A program made the translations under genes and the position numbers. 64,000 nt of DNA from Embleya hyalina (lineage in GTDB: Bacteria; Actinomycetota; Actinomycetes; Streptomycetales; Streptomycetaceae). The notes beneath the pieces are model-generated. The model was not told the origin of the DNA, searched no databases, and saw only the letters and a list, made by a program, of their open reading frames with translations. The stretch covers positions 1 to 64,000 of the forward strand of contig NZ_BIFH01000059.1 in assembly GCF_003967355.1 (NCBI RefSeq), read 5' to 3'. Shown here one piece after another: positions 13,187-20,673 of this stretch (position 1 is its first letter; the number at the start of each line of letters is the position of its first letter).

Positions 13187-13821
13187 GATTCCTCCGATAC
13201 AACGAGACGGGATACACCACACGAAGCCACTCCGCAACAACACGACGGACCCGGCATCCACTGAAAACCGAGCCCGAAAGTCGTAAGGAAAACCAGACAG
13301 GAAACCGAAAGGCGCCCCACAGGAACCGCCACGCCAGCGACACCGGTTCGCCTCAACCGCGGCCAGGACCCGCCGACCGGACGTCCCAGGCCTCACCCGC
13401 CGAGGCAGCCCTCGGAAACGACACCGATCAGGAACGACACGAACAGCCACCGAGACGCAACCCCGCCCCCGTCCACAGGTTTTCCCAACCGAACCGACCA
13501 TCCGTCCCAAATCCTGCAAACCACAGGCCACAAGCCAGACCAAAGCCGAGCAAGACGCAAAACCCAGGCCACGCACCCAAGATCCAAAATCCCAGATCCT
13601 GCAAACGCACCGGTCAACACATGATCAATCGACAAGAACTTTCAAAACAGCCGGGACGGAGCACCCGCCCGCACCCCGGGCGGCAGCGGCGCGAGGTCCT
13701 GGGACACCCTTCCGTCCCGGCTGTGATTCACGTCACTGCCGGCGGCTCGGTGCAGCACCCGGCCCCGTTCCGCCGTCATGGGGGCAGTGATCGGGACGGG
13801 ACGAGGAGAGGAGGTCGGCGG
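13187..13821. other. Gene-free region with a dispersed repeat and A-rich stretch
   Basis: About 630 bases between divergent genes. It holds dispersed repeat copy B (13272-13398), an A/C-rich stretch at 13420-13640 with two ATCCTGCAAAC motifs (near 13510 and 13594), and the leader of the sigma factor gene, which ends in a GAGGAGAGGAGG ribosome binding site. Confidence 0.5.
13272..13398. repeat. Dispersed repeat, copy B
   Basis: It shares with 555-683 the ordered blocks GCCCGAAAGTCGTAAGGAAA, CCAGACAGGAAACCGA, CAGGAACCGCCACGCC and GACCGGACGTCCCAGGC, with a variable middle. The conservation is in nucleotides rather than protein. Confidence 0.6.
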
Positions 13822-14370
13822 GTGAGGTTTCGCAGGAGCGGTCCGGGCAACGGATTCACGGAGTTCGTCGCACAGCGGTCGGGAGCGTTGTTCCGCACCG
13901 CGTATGCGCTGACCGGTGACGTGCACGTGGCCGAGGATCTGGTGCAGGAGACGCTGGAGCGGGCGTGCCGACACTGGCGGAAGGTCGCGGTGGCGGACTC
14001 GCCGGAGGCGTACGTGCGCAAAGTGCTGGTCAACCTGGCCAACGACCGCTGGCGGCGGCTGTCGCGCCGGGGCGAGCGCCCCGGGCTGTCGGGGGTGCCC
14101 GAGACGGCCGACCCCCGGGACCGGTTCGGGCAGGTGGATCTGCGCGCGGAACTGATCGAGGCACTGCTCGGGCTGCCGATGGGCATGCGCAGCGTGGTGG
14201 TCCTGTACTACCTGCACGATCTGGACGCCCGGCAGGTCGCCGACGTCCTGGACATCTCTTCGAGTGCGGTGAGGTCCCAGCTCGCCCGCGGCCTGGCCAA
14301 GCTGCGCGATTCCGTATCGGGCGCCCAGGCGCCGCACCCGCCGTCGGCCGCTTTCGGAGGTACGAAGTGA
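13822..14370 (+). CDS. SigE-type ECF sigma factor
   Basis: A 182-residue sigma factor of the actinobacterial SigE/SigM-like 50S group. Region 2 is FVAQRSGALFRTAYALTGDV with HVAEDLVQETLERACRHW. Region 4 is MGMRSVVVLYYLHDLDARQV with ADVLDISSSAVRSQLARGLA. The GTG start is chosen because GAGGAGAGGAGG ends 8 bases upstream and the coding signal begins there. Its stop overlaps the next gene's GTG, implying a coupled pair with a membrane partner. Confidence 0.92.
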   Translation: MRFRRSGPGNGFTEFVAQRSGALFRTAYALTGDVHVAEDLVQETLERACRHWRKVAVADSPEAYVRKVLVNLANDRWRRLSRRGERPGLSGVPETADPRDRFGQVDLRAELIEALLGLPMGMRSVVVLYYLHDLDARQVADVLDISSSAVRSQLARGLAKLRDSVSGAQAPHPPSAAFGGTK

Positions 14371-14945
14371 GGAACACGTCGTCCGGACCGGCCCCGTTCG
14401 AGCCGGGCCTCGAAGCCGAGCTGCGTGCCGCGGTGGCCTCCTTCGCCGACGGGCCGACGGCGCCGGTCGTCGACGCGGCCGCGATCGAGCGAGCCGTCGG
14501 CCGCGGCCGCACCCGCCGGGCGCTCCTCGGCACCGCTGCGGCGTGCTGCGTGCTGGCGTGCGCCACGGTGGGGTCCTTCGCGCTGAAGCCCGTGCCGCCC
14601 GCGCCCGGCGCCTCCCCGTCCCTGTCCCCACCGGCGAACGGGGCGTGCACCCCGCTCGCCACCGGCACCCCCAGGAGCGGAAGCGCCGACGCGACTCCGA
14701 CACGGGAGCAGGAGCGGACCGCGGGAGCGGGCATCGCGCTGCCGGACCTGGCCGGCATGCCGGTCGAACAGGCCGAAAGCCTGCTGCGCGGACTCGGACT
14801 GAGCTGCACGATCATGCGGCACACGGACTGGAACGCTCCCGCCGGGCAGGTGATCGGCAGTCACCCCCGGGGCGGCGCGGAACCGGTGGCACCGGGCTCG
14901 TCCGTCCTCCTGCTGGTCTCGACGGGCAAACCCGGCAGAACCTGA
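14367..14945 (+). CDS. Sigma-linked membrane protein with a PASTA domain
   Basis: Predicted 192 residues starting at a GTG that overlaps the sigma stop, with CGGAGG upstream. A cytoplasmic helix (LEAELRAAVASFADGP) is followed by one transmembrane segment (LLGTAAACCVLACATVGSFA), a Pro/Ser-rich linker and a C-terminal PASTA domain. The PASTA domain reads LPDLAGMPVEQAESLLRGLG, then QVIGSHPRGGAEPVAPGSSV and LLLVSTG. PASTA domains bind peptidoglycan or beta-lactams in Ser/Thr kinases and PBPs. Here one is attached to a likely sigma-factor regulator, suggesting cell-wall sensing. Confidence 0.8.
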   Translation: MRNTSSGPAPFEPGLEAELRAAVASFADGPTAPVVDAAAIERAVGRGRTRRALLGTAAACCVLACATVGSFALKPVPPAPGASPSLSPPANGACTPLATGTPRSGSADATPTREQERTAGAGIALPDLAGMPVEQAESLLRGLGLSCTIMRHTDWNAPAGQVIGSHPRGGAEPVAPGSSVLLLVSTGKPGRT

Positions 14946-15388
14946 GCGACCGGGCCCTTCGGCCCGCGCACCGGCCGAGTGACCCAGGGGCCGGTGCCGG
15001 GCAGTCCGTCGACCGCGGCGCACCGGCTGGACGCGCCGGACTCGACGGCGCGAACGACGTGATGTTCGCGACGGTCACCGCGATGTCCCCGGACGATCGG
15101 CGCGGCGCGGCGAACACCGCACCGGAACACGGTCGCGCACGCCCGTATCGTCGTCCCGGTCGAAGCGACGCCGAGTGGCGAACGCACACCCCGTACGACG
15201 AACCCGGTGCTGCTCTGACGGCGCCGGACACTCCTTCGCCTGGGCGCAGCGGAGACGTTGGCCTGTGGGAATTGAGGCGGCCGGGGGTGCCGCGCGACGG
15301 GTGGTGTGGGTCGCGGTGGGGTGTGTCTTCCGCGCCGATGTGGTGTTGCGTCATCATGGGGTTTCTCTGGGTGATCGAGGAGGCGTTC
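14946..15388. other. Leader region of the peptide/methyltransferase pair
   Basis: No gene supported. It should contain the promoter of the short peptide gene; the final bases carry CGAGGAGG as ribosome binding site (15376-15383). Confidence 0.45.
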
Positions 15389-15508
15389 ATGGGACAGCAC
15401 GAGAAGCCGCCGCCGGATCCGTCGAAGGGGAATCCGCCGCCGAACAACTCCGATGGGCAGGTGCCTGCTCCTCCGCCGTCGAACGGCCAGCACAAGAAGG
15501 ACAAGTAG
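15389..15508 (+). CDS. 39-residue Pro/Asn/Lys-rich peptide, candidate substrate of the adjacent methyltransferase
   Basis: A short gene with a strong ribosome binding site (GAGGAGG, five bases before the ATG), ending 5 bases before the methyltransferase start. The peptide opens with MGQHEKPPPDPSKGN, has a central NNSDGQ holding its only Asp-Gly, and closes with NGQHKKDK. It has no membrane helix or lipobox. Asp-Gly is the sequence most prone to aspartimide formation, the chemistry that protein-isoaspartate-methyltransferase homologues drive in some RiPPs. That it is a precursor peptide is inferred from size, coupling and the DG site; it could also be a small regulatory protein. Confidence 0.6.
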   Translation: MGQHEKPPPDPSKGNPPPNNSDGQVPAPPPSNGQHKKDK

Positions 15509-15513
15509 CTCGC

Positions 15514-16635
15514 GTGGATGTTGTCGAGGCGCGGTCGCGGTTGGCGGTCGAGATGGATCGGCGTGGGCAATGGCCACAGCGCGCGCCGTGGATCCGGCTT
15601 GCCGTGGAGTCCACGCCCCGGGACGAGTTCGCGCCGGACCGGCTGTGGCGCTGGGACGGCGACGGCTATGTGCCGGTCGATCGGGGGGTCGACGAGGACG
15701 CGTGGGTGGCGCTGGTGTACGCGGGGCCGGACGACGCGGCGGTGACGCAGGTCGTCGACGGGGTTCCCACGTCGAGCCTGTCGTGCCAGGCGGTGGTGGT
15801 GGACATGCTCGACTCGCTGCTCCTGGAACCCGGGCACCGGGTCCTGGAGTTGGGTACGGGGACGGGGTGGAACGCGGCGTTGGCCGCCCGGCGCGCCGGG
15901 CCCGGCAACGTCGTCAGCGTCGAGGTCGATCCGGGCTTGGCCGAGGGGGCCCGCAAGGCACTCGCGGCCTCCGGGCTGGACCTGTGCGTCGAGGTCGGGG
16001 ACGGCGCGGCCGGTCGTCCGTCGGAGCGGCTGTGGGACCGGGTGATCTCGACGTACGCGGTGGAGCGGGTGCCGTGGGCGTGGATCGCGCAGGCCCGACC
16101 CGGAGGCCGTGTGGTCACACCGTGGGGGCGGTTGGGGCACCTCGCGTTGACCGTCGCGGACGACGGAGGCTCGGCGAGCGGGTGGGTTCAGGGGCTCGCC
16201 ACGTTCATGCCCGCCCGGGGCACCCCGGCCGAACGTGGTTTCGCCGATGTACGCGGCGACGCGGAGGTCGGGGAGGAGCGCGAAGTCGTCCGGGACCTGG
16301 CGCCGTTGTGCGACGACGCGCATCTGCTGTTCGCGTTGCGTGTCGCGCTGCCCGAGCTGCGGGTGCGCGCCGCGCGCGACGCCGACGGCGTCAATGCCTG
16401 GATCCACGATGGCGACGCCTCCTGGGCCGTGTACTCCGCGTCCGCGGACGGCATGACGACGCTGTACCAGGGCGGCCCACGGCGCTTGGGCGACGAGGTG
16501 GAGACGGCCTGGGACCGGTGGATCGCCGCCGGTGCCCCGGGGCTGTACGACCACGGAATGACCGTCACTCCCGACACGCAGTTCGTGTGGGCCTACGACT
16601 CCGACACCGGGCCCAGGTGGCCGACGACCACGTAA
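15514..16635 (+). CDS. Protein-L-isoaspartate O-methyltransferase homologue (RiPP-type)
   Basis: Predicted 373-residue SAM-dependent methyltransferase. It has PCMT-type features: PTSSLSCQAVVVDMLD (substrate-loop region), SAM motif I VLELGTGTGWNAALA, motif post-I VVSVEVDPGLAEGA, then VEVGDGAAG and ISTYAVERVPWAWIAQARPG. It is much longer than housekeeping PCMT (~220 residues). The extra ~150-residue C-terminal domain (LATFMPARGTP onward) is seen in methyltransferases of actinobacterial peptide-maturation loci. It directly follows the 39-residue peptide gene, which makes that peptide its likely substrate. A graspetide operon lies 2 kb further on the other strand. Confidence 0.8.
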   Translation: MDVVEARSRLAVEMDRRGQWPQRAPWIRLAVESTPRDEFAPDRLWRWDGDGYVPVDRGVDEDAWVALVYAGPDDAAVTQVVDGVPTSSLSCQAVVVDMLDSLLLEPGHRVLELGTGTGWNAALAARRAGPGNVVSVEVDPGLAEGARKALAASGLDLCVEVGDGAAGRPSERLWDRVISTYAVERVPWAWIAQARPGGRVVTPWGRLGHLALTVADDGGSASGWVQGLATFMPARGTPAERGFADVRGDAEVGEEREVVRDLAPLCDDAHLLFALRVALPELRVRAARDADGVNAWIHDGDASWAVYSASADGMTTLYQGGPRRLGDEVETAWDRWIAAGAPGLYDHGMTVTPDTQFVWAYDSDTGPRWPTTT

Positions 16636-16864
16636 CCCGCGTGACGGCGGCGCCAGGCGACGTCGGCCGACCGTGGACGAGAACTCCACGACACGGATCC
16701 ACGCGGGCCGGTCGTCCGTCCCGGCCGGCCCGCTGCGCCTGCCGTGTCCGGCCGGGATGTCGCCCGAACATCTGCCTCGTCAACGCATCTGCACCGTCGT
16801 TGTCCGGGCTGGTGCCACCGTCCGCAGCCGTCGTACACCACCACCGGTCCCGGCGTGCCCCCGC

Positions 16865-18495: not shown

Positions 18496-19287
18496 CTAAG
18501 TTGTTGCGTGTGCAATGAGGGCCTCGAGTTCCGGGGCCGGCCATGGGCGGGCGTCGGCGAGGGGGACGTGGTGTCGGCCGGTGGCGATGTCCTCGAGGAG
18601 GTCGTCGAGGGTGACGCCCGGGCCGACGTCGCGGGTGGTGGCGGGGGTGGTTCCGGTCCAAGCCCAGCGCAGGGCGGCGGCGAGGGCGTGGCGTTCGTCG
18701 GCGGGGGTGAGACGGATGTGGACCTCGGGTGGGGTGTGCAGGAGTTGGCGGGCGACGCCGGGTGTGGTGGCGTGGTCCATGCCGCCCCGGTAGGGGCCCG
18801 CCGGTGGCAACAGGCCCTGGTGGTGGGTGTATTCGTGGTCGACGAACACGGGCTGGTCGCCGGGGTCGATCAGGATGTTCCAGGGTTGCAGGTCGCCGTG
18901 GCGCCATCCGGCGGCGTGGAGGTCGTCGAGTCCGGCGAACGCGCGGTGGGCGATCGTGGTCAGGCGCGGTGCGAAGTCGGGCGGCGGGTCGGGGACGCGG
19001 CCCAGGGCGCACCACCGCCACAGGTCGACGCCGGGCAGGAACTCCACCGCAGTCCAGACCCCGTCGCCGACGCGCCCGTGTCGGCCGTCGGCGGGATGCA
19101 GACCCCGGGCATGCAGCAGTCGCACGGCTTCGGCCTCGTGCAGCAGCAGGGCTGCGGCGGCCGGTTCGGTCGTGGTCTTGATCTTCCAGCGGCCGGCCCG
19201 CCAGGCGTCGGTGTGGTGTGTGGTCAGGGGGTGGGGCTCGTCGGTGACGTCGAGGGCGGCGAGAGCGGCGGCGAGCAGCGGGTCCAT
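18496..19287 (-). CDS. Kinase-like (APH/lipopolysaccharide-kinase fold) protein of the graspetide operon
   Basis: A 263-residue protein with a protein-kinase/aminoglycoside-phosphotransferase pattern. Lys37 (RWKIKTTTEP) is a candidate ATP lysine, Glu51 sits in the following helix, and the catalytic loop is GWRHGDLQPWNILID (H130-G-D132, N137) followed by a metal-binding VFVDHE (D150). GAGGA lies 7 bases before the ATG. It is third in the operon after precursor and ligase, with a 35-bp gap. Known actinobacterial ligase operons of this type usually carry a methyltransferase here. A kinase-like enzyme in its place could phosphorylate the peptide, the host or an ingested ligand. Confidence 0.75.
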   Translation of the reverse strand: MDPLLAAALAALDVTDEPHPLTTHHTDAWRAGRWKIKTTTEPAAAALLLHEAEAVRLLHARGLHPADGRHGRVGDGVWTAVEFLPGVDLWRWCALGRVPDPPPDFAPRLTTIAHRAFAGLDDLHAAGWRHGDLQPWNILIDPGDQPVFVDHEYTHHQGLLPPAGPYRGGMDHATTPGVARQLLHTPPEVHIRLTPADERHALAAALRWAWTGTTPATTRDVGPGVTLDDLLEDIATGRHHVPLADARPWPAPELEALIAHATT

Positions 19288-19322
19288 CGTCACATCCTCG
19301 CGCGCACGGGCGCCGTGCGGTG

Positions 19323-20267
19323 TCAGGTGGCAGTGGTTGCGCGGGTGTGGTGGGTGAGGAGGCGGGCGATCGCGGTGGAGATCGGCAGGTCGGTGAGGGC
19401 TTCGATCCAGCCGAACTCGCCCGCGCAGTTGGTCTCCAGGTAGGTCCAGCCGTCGGCGGTGACGACGAAGTCCAGCGCGGCGTAGACCAGGCCGAGTTCG
19501 CGCACGTGTTCCACACAGGCGCGTTCGACGTCGGCGGGTGGCGTGATCGCGGCATGGCGGCAGTCGGCGGCAGGGACGGTACGCCAATCGAGGGCACCGT
19601 CGGTGGCGATCGACGCGGCGAACACCCGATCCCCGACCACCGTGACGCGGGCGTCGAACAGGCGGTCCTCGACGAGGGCCTGGAGGTAGTGGACGGTGCC
19701 GGCGATCGCGTCGAGGTCGTCGCACGCGCGCAGGCGGGTGGTGGGGATCAGGGTGGTGTGGCGTTGGGTGAGGGCCTTGACCACGACCTTGTCGCGGTGG
19801 GCGGTCACGAAGGTACGGGCCGTGTCCGGGTCGCACGTGAACAGCGTGTCCGGTACGCGCAGACCGTGGCGGGCGGCGCAGGCGAGCTGGGTGGGTTTGT
19901 GCTCGGACGCGTCGACCACGAGCGGGTCGTTGATCCACAGGACGGGATGGGCGCGGAGCAGGCCCAGGAGTGCGGTGGTGTTCTCGTCGGCGCGCCATCG
20001 TTCGTCCGCGTCGGGGTGGGTGTCGGGGCGGGTGGGTTTGCGCCAGTACACCGAGGTGGCGGGGCCGACGGTCACGGCCCGCCGGCCGTCGTCGATCGTG
20101 GTGGCCCAGGTGCCGGCGGCGAACCGGCCGCCGGCGGTGACGGTTTCGCGCAGGCGGCCGGGGTCCAGGCGGATGAACGCGTCGCGGCCGAGGCGGCTCG
20201 CCACCAGGTCGGCGGTGAGGTCGTCCTCGGCCGCGACGACGATCACACGGGCTTCGCGAGGGGGCAT
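19323..20267 (-). CDS. tgmB: ATP-grasp ligase, graspetide (RiPP) maturase
   Basis: A 314-residue ATP-grasp enzyme of the actinobacterial peptide-maturase family (TgmB/SAV_5884-like). N-terminal substrate domain: IVVAAEDDLTADLVASRLG and VYWRKPTRPDTHPDADERWR. ATP-binding Lys164 lies in VVVKALTQRH. Metal and catalytic residues lie in ALDFVVTADG (D266) and YLETNCAGEFGWIEALTDLP (E278, N280). These enzymes activate Asp/Glu side chains of a precursor core with ATP and form ester or amide crosslinks to Ser/Thr or Lys. Its ATG overlaps the precursor stop in TAATG, so the two are translationally coupled. Confidence 0.88.
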   Translation of the reverse strand: MPPREARVIVVAAEDDLTADLVASRLGRDAFIRLDPGRLRETVTAGGRFAAGTWATTIDDGRRAVTVGPATSVYWRKPTRPDTHPDADERWRADENTTALLGLLRAHPVLWINDPLVVDASEHKPTQLACAARHGLRVPDTLFTCDPDTARTFVTAHRDKVVVKALTQRHTTLIPTTRLRACDDLDAIAGTVHYLQALVEDRLFDARVTVVGDRVFAASIATDGALDWRTVPAADCRHAAITPPADVERACVEHVRELGLVYAALDFVVTADGWTYLETNCAGEFGWIEALTDLPISTAIARLLTHHTRATTAT

Positions 20268-20482
20268 TACTTGGGGTCGTCCTTGCGGCGCACGCCGCCC
20301 TGGTCCTGCGTGCTGGTGTAGTTCGCCACCGTCGCCGGATCGGCCGCCTCCACCAGCAGCCGGCCGTCCGCGACGACGTTCGCGCCGACCAGCGGGTCGT
20401 AGCGGTGCTCCGGCAACGGCAGAGAGCGGCCGGTCGGGGCGGGAATCGGGAGTCGGCGGGTCAGGAGCAACGGAGTTGCCAC
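20267..20482 (-). CDS. tgmA: ATP-grasp-modified RiPP precursor (graspetide)
   Basis: A 71-residue peptide from a GTG start with AAGGGA 7 bases upstream. The leader (TPLLLTRRLPIPAPTGRSLP, then EHRYDPLVGANVV) has the tyrosine-Asp-Pro block typical of leaders recognised by this ligase family. The hydrophilic C-terminus TSTQDQGGVRRKDDPK is the likely core: acidic donors D60, D68 and D69 face acceptors T56/S57/T58 or the lysines. Compared with usual TgmA cores it has fewer Thr/Asp pairs and an unusual VRRK segment. The ring pattern cannot be predicted with certainty. It is first in the operon, followed at once by its ligase. Confidence 0.8.
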   Translation of the reverse strand: MATPLLLTRRLPIPAPTGRSLPLPEHRYDPLVGANVVADGRLLVEAADPATVANYTSTQDQGGVRRKDDPK

Positions 20483-20673
20483 GGGAAGTCCCTTCGTGTG
20501 TGGTGCGAACCGTCGTGCGTTTCCAGGACATCGCGTCGGGGCGGGGGTGGGAAGGCGGTGTGCGGGGTGTGCATGCGGTGTGCGTGTTGTGCACATGGCG
20601 TCGACGCTGGGTGATTCGCCGGCTACGGTGGGGGCGGACATCGTCTGCACGCCGCGCGCCCGAGGGGGTCGTG
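20483..20673. promoter_or_regulatory. Divergent promoter region between graspetide operon and XRE regulator
   Basis: This 191-bp gap separates the leftward precursor gene from the rightward XRE gene. It should hold both promoters and probably the regulator's binding site. A GTGTGC-rich run lies near 20570-20600 (GCATGCGGTGTGCG and neighbours). I do not see a decisive -35/-10 pair. Confidence 0.45.

Follow-up and report, generated by a model that had tools for sequence, protein, structure and literature searches.

Imiditides, or type I pamtides, are an already published class of RiPP. As set out in two accounts of the class (PMC10787088; PMC13001092), they are encoded by two-gene BGCs with linear precursors of ~45 aa that are rich in Gly, Pro, Asp and Lys, and on these a stand-alone PIMT homologue forms a methyl ester that passes to an aspartimide and then to hydrolysis products. 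The same accounts report a dependence on the C-terminal residues of the precursor and a WXXXGXP motif in the enzymes, and refer to 1414 type I pamtides listed by Kim and colleagues. Imiditides are credited with strong positive charges, a membrane-active role has been proposed for strongly cationic members, and the biological role of the products is given as unknown across the whole class (PMC13001092). Cysimiditides (type II pamtides) are described as having two CXXCXGXG zinc-binding motifs (PMC13001092). Among the matches listed in a literature search joining Embleya and RiPP, none concerned imiditides by title.

A two-gene locus of an Embleya species, found in the window (the whole 64,000-nucleotide stretch of DNA that was analysed), is very probably a cassette of this class, and in the features that could be compared at the level of sequence it fits the published description (Table 1). 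The peptide ORF runs from its ATG to a TAG at 15506-15508 and translates as MGQHEKPPPDPSKGNPPPNNSDGQVPAPPPSNGQHKKDK, which lacks Cys and contains exactly one Asp-Gly among three Asp (D10, D22, D38). A good Shine-Dalgarno sequence ends 5 bases before the ATG, and 5 bases lie between the peptide stop and the GTG of the methyltransferase gene. The sequence-only reading had described a 39-residue peptide with a strong ribosome binding site, a stop 5 bases ahead of the enzyme and a single Asp-Gly, and coordinates and translation bear it out on each point. CATCATG begins 37 nt before the peptide start codon; CA[CGT]NATG occurs upstream in 25 of 49 clade precursors (up to 140 nt upstream looked at), with 21 of these 25 occurrences at 36-50 nt before the start, and we infer that the CANNATG element is a promoter. 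Further upstream on the same strand, at 13621-14942, the window holds a SigE-family ECF sigma factor (TIGR02983) followed by another ORF, which we take to be a PASTA-type protein from its appearance.

Table 1. Coordinates of the features discussed, in window positions.
Feature	Position	Strand	Basis or content
Promoter-like CANNATG element (CATCATG) and Shine-Dalgarno AGGAGG	15340..15388	+	Sequence
Precursor peptide gene, 39 aa	15389..15508	+	ORF reading, family census, pN/pS
PIMT-like O-methyltransferase (PAMT), 373 aa, GTG start	15514..16635	+	PCMT domain and C-terminal extension with WIAAGAP (WXXXGXP)
Second RiPP locus	18499-20500	-	ATP-grasp maturase, precursor-like ORF ending YTSTQDQGGVRRKDDPK, kinase-like ORF
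ATP-grasp ribosomal peptide maturase (SAV_5884-like), separate RiPP locus	19326..20267	-	TIGR04187 254 bits, cut-off 350

The PCMT domain (PF01135, E 9.4e-23) spans residues 80-212 of the methyltransferase. The nearest NCBIfam model is TIGR04188, 'ATP-grasp peptide maturase system methyltransferase', at 242.6 bits against a cut-off of 380; the lanthipeptide FxLD methyltransferase model TIGR04364 gives 113 bits (cut-off 320), and scores against the housekeeping PIMT equivalog models fall far under their cut-offs. An AlphaFold2 model (pLDDT 94.4) has a well-folded C-terminal extension and, by fold, matches best the Thermotoga maritima PIMT 1dl5 (366-378 columns aligned, TM 0.51-0.54 by query length), an enzyme of 20-21% sequence identity that, according to a review (PMC13001092), likewise bears a C-terminal extension. 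The solved PIMTs matched are mostly of ~210-235 aa, that of T. maritima having 317, so that the earlier estimate of ~150 residues beyond housekeeping PCMT agrees with the length found here.

Homologues of the window enzyme were sought at E<=1e-100 in 394 Streptomycetaceae genomes, and 60 were recovered from 52 of them. Scores in a draw of 121 genomes of the family left a gap, lying either at >=375 bits or at <=200 bits, and when 296 genomes were drawn more widely, from the whole class, three had a match: the window's own genome, another of the Streptomycetaceae and one of a different family. Reading the upstream regions of all 60 homologues gave an intact family peptide at 54, each with an in-frame start codon, a frameshifted one at two (L004, in the window's own genome, and L151) and none at four (L131, L136, L167, L173). 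The match at L173 is partial, its alignment starting from query residue 62; L131, L136 and L167 yielded no precursor by RBS filter or three-frame reading. Side observations from these exceptions are that in L136 the methyltransferase frame itself opens with a peptide-like MREHE stretch, without a separate precursor, and that in L004 and L151 the precursor is frameshifted while the enzyme remains open, sequencing error and decay being indistinguishable. One pattern recovered 49 of the 54 peptides, and another pattern or inspection by eye the remaining five (L009, L143, L145, L148, L150). The 49-locus pattern was composed after family members had been seen and thus tests place rather than discovery; since all its matches in 736,554 bases, both strands counted, fall just where the peptide is expected, ahead of the enzyme at 49 of the 60 loci, the pairing of peptide and enzyme is not chance. 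Co-occurrence of the peptide family with the methyltransferase, proposed by the sequence-only reading as the check on its idea, is therefore found at 54 of 60 loci, and the outcome that it named as damaging, homologues lacking any upstream peptide, arises in a minority (four of 60) as against the 54 with a peptide and the two with a frameshifted one.

Across the 54 peptides (53 distinct), Gly14, Pro17, Pro18, Asn20, Asp22 and Gly33 are invariant. Asp22 is the sole invariant Asp, D10 being present in 42, and the residue after it is Gly in 48, Ser in five and Val in one; at L036, a named locus outside the census, His follows the conserved Asp. An alignment had been expected to reveal an invariant Asp-Gly: the Asp held in all 54 peptides, the following Gly in only 48, and because residue 23 varies in this way the real invariant is Asp and not Asp-Gly. 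The clade motif can be written MGxHxKP(x)nGxPPPxNxD(G/S)(Q/K)VP(x)nGKHKK, with a conserved P-P-x-N-x-D core that holds D22, a largely conserved N-terminal MGxHxK and a mostly basic C-terminus, G-x-[HR]-[KRG]-[KR]. In the window peptide Asp22, encoded by GAT at 15452-15454 within PPPNNSDGQVP, is the predicted modification site. The peptides average 38 residues (P 26.2%, G 15.9%, K 12.3%, D 8.4%), and the last eight residues carry a net charge of at least +1 in 52 of 54; whole-peptide net charge, His not counted, ranges from -5 to +4 and is zero or below in 26. Cys was found in none of the 54. The peptides are very hydrophilic, and their C-terminal stretches (up to 36 residues each) lack W, F, Y, I and C altogether. 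No leader/core boundary is visible in the set, conservation running from end to end. In ten chosen cassette pairs, which are non-independent and give small counts for the peptide, pN/pS was 0.09-0.27 for the peptide and 0.29-0.52 for the enzyme, and the peptide codons look to be under purifying selection.

By analogy with published relatives, we infer methylation, imide formation and hydrolysis as successive steps. The D22 side chain would be methylated with SAM (+14 Da), the peptide being linear and carrying no other modification; the backbone nitrogen of residue 23 would then attack the methyl ester, with loss of methanol, to give an aspartimide (net -18 Da) that would hydrolyse to isoAsp or Asp. 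The basic C-terminus of the peptide is probably bound by the enzyme's additional C-terminal domain. The original proposal, in which a stand-alone PCMT-like enzyme acts on this peptide to make aspartimide or isoaspartate, is strongly supported by co-occurrence, the invariant Asp, codon constraint, phylogeny and the published biochemistry of the class (PMC10787088; PMC13001092).

The surroundings of the cassette were searched for conserved genes by all-against-all comparison of ORFs of at least 70 aa at 45 loci, with flanks of ~4-10 kb, and no exporter, protease or second maturase was found to recur beside the clade; the product may therefore use shared machinery or act intracellularly. With groups positioned on the enzyme or peptide itself set aside, the commonest third gene was an HTH-regulator-like ORF (a label taken from reading one sequence) in 11 of the 45 loci, two of which, L039 and L171, share one contig; it stands in varying places and was not taken into the system. 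The next commonest groups occur in four of 45. A short ORF so tightly coupled to the enzyme, with no recurrent exporter or protease in this search and with a product that is very hydrophilic, lacks W, F, Y, I and C C-terminally and has no leader/core split, could also be a translated regulatory leader (attenuator), or a small protein repaired or regulated by the enzyme, rather than a natural-product precursor. We regard this as very unlikely: the constraint acts on amino acids, distant invariant positions included, and published homologous pairs form aspartimide (PMC10787088; PMC13001092). Such a reading would in any case alter the role of the peptide and not the chemistry.

The claim that no other maturase stands next to the peptide holds for its immediate neighbours and fails a little further out, where an ATP-grasp ligase with a precursor-like ORF lies 2.7 kb from the cassette on the other strand. 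The region from 18.5 to 22 kb comprises, besides the ligase, this precursor-like ORF upstream of it, a kinase-like ORF weakly similar to class III/IV lanthionine synthetases (far under cut-off) and an NsdA-like regulator (43 bits, under the cut-off of 75). Three paralogous ligases, on contigs C31, C21 and C34 of the same genome, are accompanied by similar precursor-like ORFs; C21 and C34 have no homologue of the window methyltransferase at E<=0.001, and on C31 a ligase 77% identical to that of the window lies ~2.9 kb from a paralogue of the enzyme. This repeated proximity, the TIGR04188 best match and the presence of a DG in the precursor-like ORF of the ATP-grasp locus as well would suit a methyltransferase that tailors the nearby graspetide-like ATP-grasp RiPP (about 18.5-20.6 kb), the 39-aa ORF being incidental. 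Against it, enzyme and ligase are convergent in the window and divergent in C31, and a relative of the ligase occurs at one of 45 other clade loci, namely the C31 paralogue itself (tblastn, E<=1e-5; flanks of ~4-10 kb where the contig allows, clade loci with ~1.5 kb flanks being left out).

Inheritance of the cassette points the same way. In blastn comparisons (hits of at least 120 bases) the contig of a same-genus orthologue (G003) matched the window at 15346-16627 only, and peptide and enzyme are conserved there without the ligase in the 20 kb read; the C31 paralogue of the own genome matched at 15311-16639 and, apart from this, at the ATP-grasp locus (18515-20415). A tree of 73 sequences (74 had been chosen, of which L042 dropped out) placed the 26 clade enzymes on one side of a branch with support of 100/100, and the four ATP-grasp-adjacent methyltransferases of the own genome (C43, C25:231801, C41, C42) formed a group of their own on one side of another branch (100/98). 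Given the rarity of the ligase at other clade loci and the separate tree groups, the ATP-grasp locus was rejected as a partner of the cassette, its proximity being read as incidental or as a sign of RiPP islands, and a tailoring role for the enzyme in that locus is a slender prospect. A separate observation concerns L176, where the ATP-grasp gene, which has a methyltransferase beside it, is preceded by a precursor-like peptide beginning MGDHAK, a start of imiditide type within an ATP-grasp locus.

A housekeeping protein-repair PIMT behind a chance upstream ORF, suggested by the PCMT domain and by nearest solved structures that are PIMTs, is scarcely conceivable and in the main refuted by the census, given the C-terminal extension, as many as 13 homologues in one genome, the sporadic presence of the clade (52 of 394 genomes), and a peptide that is kept under codon-level constraint, at 54 of 60 loci, and whose pattern had no match elsewhere. 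Points that tell against the imiditide reading itself are that the nearest NCBIfam family is that of an ATP-grasp system (below cut-off) with an ATP-grasp locus nearby here and at one paralogue, that four of 60 enzymes have no peptide and two a frameshifted one, that WXXXGXP is exact in 19 of the 26 clade enzymes of the tree set (aligned segments), and that the charge is not strongly positive.

The genome has unusually many copies of the imiditide cassette. Its 13 homologues at E<=1e-30, a count that takes in ATP-grasp-linked enzymes, are the most in any of 121 family genomes (median two, 27 with none), and the window clade has four members here as against two at most in any other of the 394 genomes. 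Fourteen own-genome homologues were inspected (the 13 and C42): four directly adjoin an ATP-grasp gene and ten, judged stand-alone by that feature alone, do not. Eight of these ten have an intact upstream peptide, one a frameshifted one, and one none found. Five own-genome copies other than the window cassette (L005-L008, L175) likewise have an upstream DG peptide; the copy at C38 (L178) gave no precursor by RBS filter or three-frame reading, and C26, a weaker match, has no such peptide. Contig C31 (229 kb) alone holds four imiditide-type methyltransferase loci (L002, L004, L005, L007). Upstream of the precursors of L006 and L008, both on C16, there is a near-palindrome, ACCCC(T/A)TATGGGT, a possible operator. 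Among 72,556 plasmid records 53 contained a homologue (E<=1e-30), and the members on three linear Streptomyces plasmids that were examined are 55-68% identical, two of them (L183, L185) being accompanied by a peptide frame. In that of L183 the interval from the preceding stop to the conserved His contains no ATG, GTG or TTG; at L184 (pSSP121038) the clade enzyme is shortened at its 5' end beside an ISL3 transposase and has no peptide.

Removal of the initiator Met is favoured by a small second residue, and NH2-Gly-x-His is the amino-terminal Cu(II)/Ni(II) (ATCUN) motif. The clade peptides might accordingly be metal-binding, exposing an N-terminal Gly-x-His for copper or nickel after loss of Met, a speculative reading that we consider very unlikely. 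A small residue at position 2 with His4 begins 47 of the 54 clade precursors (best-RBS start) and 16 of 50 precursors from 64 loci of other subfamilies, in none of which His stands at position 3 or 5, the base rate being 27 of 1234 mechanically listed ORFs; rows in these counts are related and non-independent. Among the seven exceptions, the His is buried by an N-terminal extension in four (L157, L160, L163, L169), replaced by Arg in two (L143, L150) and found at position 5 in one (L122). Of the 49 peptides recovered by the pattern, 47 have a His-to-Asp spacing of 18, and in the remaining two the match began at an Arg; such fixed spacing fits enzyme recognition too. NmaA lacking its first 20 residues still yields aspartimide, at lower levels (PMC13001092), and the N-terminus may therefore be kept for something beyond recognition by the enzyme. 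Among the papers listed as joining ATCUN and RiPP, none concerned the imiditide class by title and abstract start. If the reading were true, the product would be a metal-binder, hydrophilic and close to neutral, that bears an electrophilic imide and of which a genome makes many paralogous variants. Because the MGxH start is common, metal binding would be cheap to test.

Whatever the role of the products, at least eight intact stand-alone pairs, the orthologue and the graded paralogues constitute natural test pairs for enzyme-precursor specificity, and within the clade one Asp in PPxNxD emerges as the fixed element, the next position tolerating Gly, Ser or Val. With its net charge near zero, the clade does not match the membrane-active role suggested for strongly cationic members of the class.

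Set beside the described systems, the locus is neither a type II pamtide nor a housekeeping PIMT. Type II pamtides (cysimiditides) are alike in pairing a stand-alone PAMT with a short precursor and differ by their two CXXCXGXG motifs, Cys being absent here, and a housekeeping PIMT consists of a PCMT domain alone (~210 aa), in contrast to the extended enzyme of 373 aa. Graspetide tailoring methyltransferases (TIGR04188, tgmC) are alike as the nearest NCBIfam model, yet they occupy a separate tree branch, the score lies below the cut-off and a relative of the ATP-grasp ligase was found at one of 45 other clade loci searched. The closest resemblance is to NmaA-NmaM of Nonomuraea maritima and SpaA-SpaM of Streptomyces sparsogenes, compared here by published description. 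With these the locus shares a two-gene cluster in which no primary RiPP maturase is conserved alongside (the search for maturases by name being for the ATP-grasp ligase only), a linear Gly/Pro/Asp/Lys-rich precursor (mean 38 aa, against ~45 aa) with a conserved Asp near Pro/Gly, conserved charged termini of which the C-terminal one is basic, and a PIMT homologue with a C-terminal extension and WXXXGXP, in the window WIAAGAP. It is set apart from them by a peptide motif of its own, shorter mean length and a net charge of about zero, and from NmaA, in which His follows the modified Asp, by Gly at that position in the window peptide.
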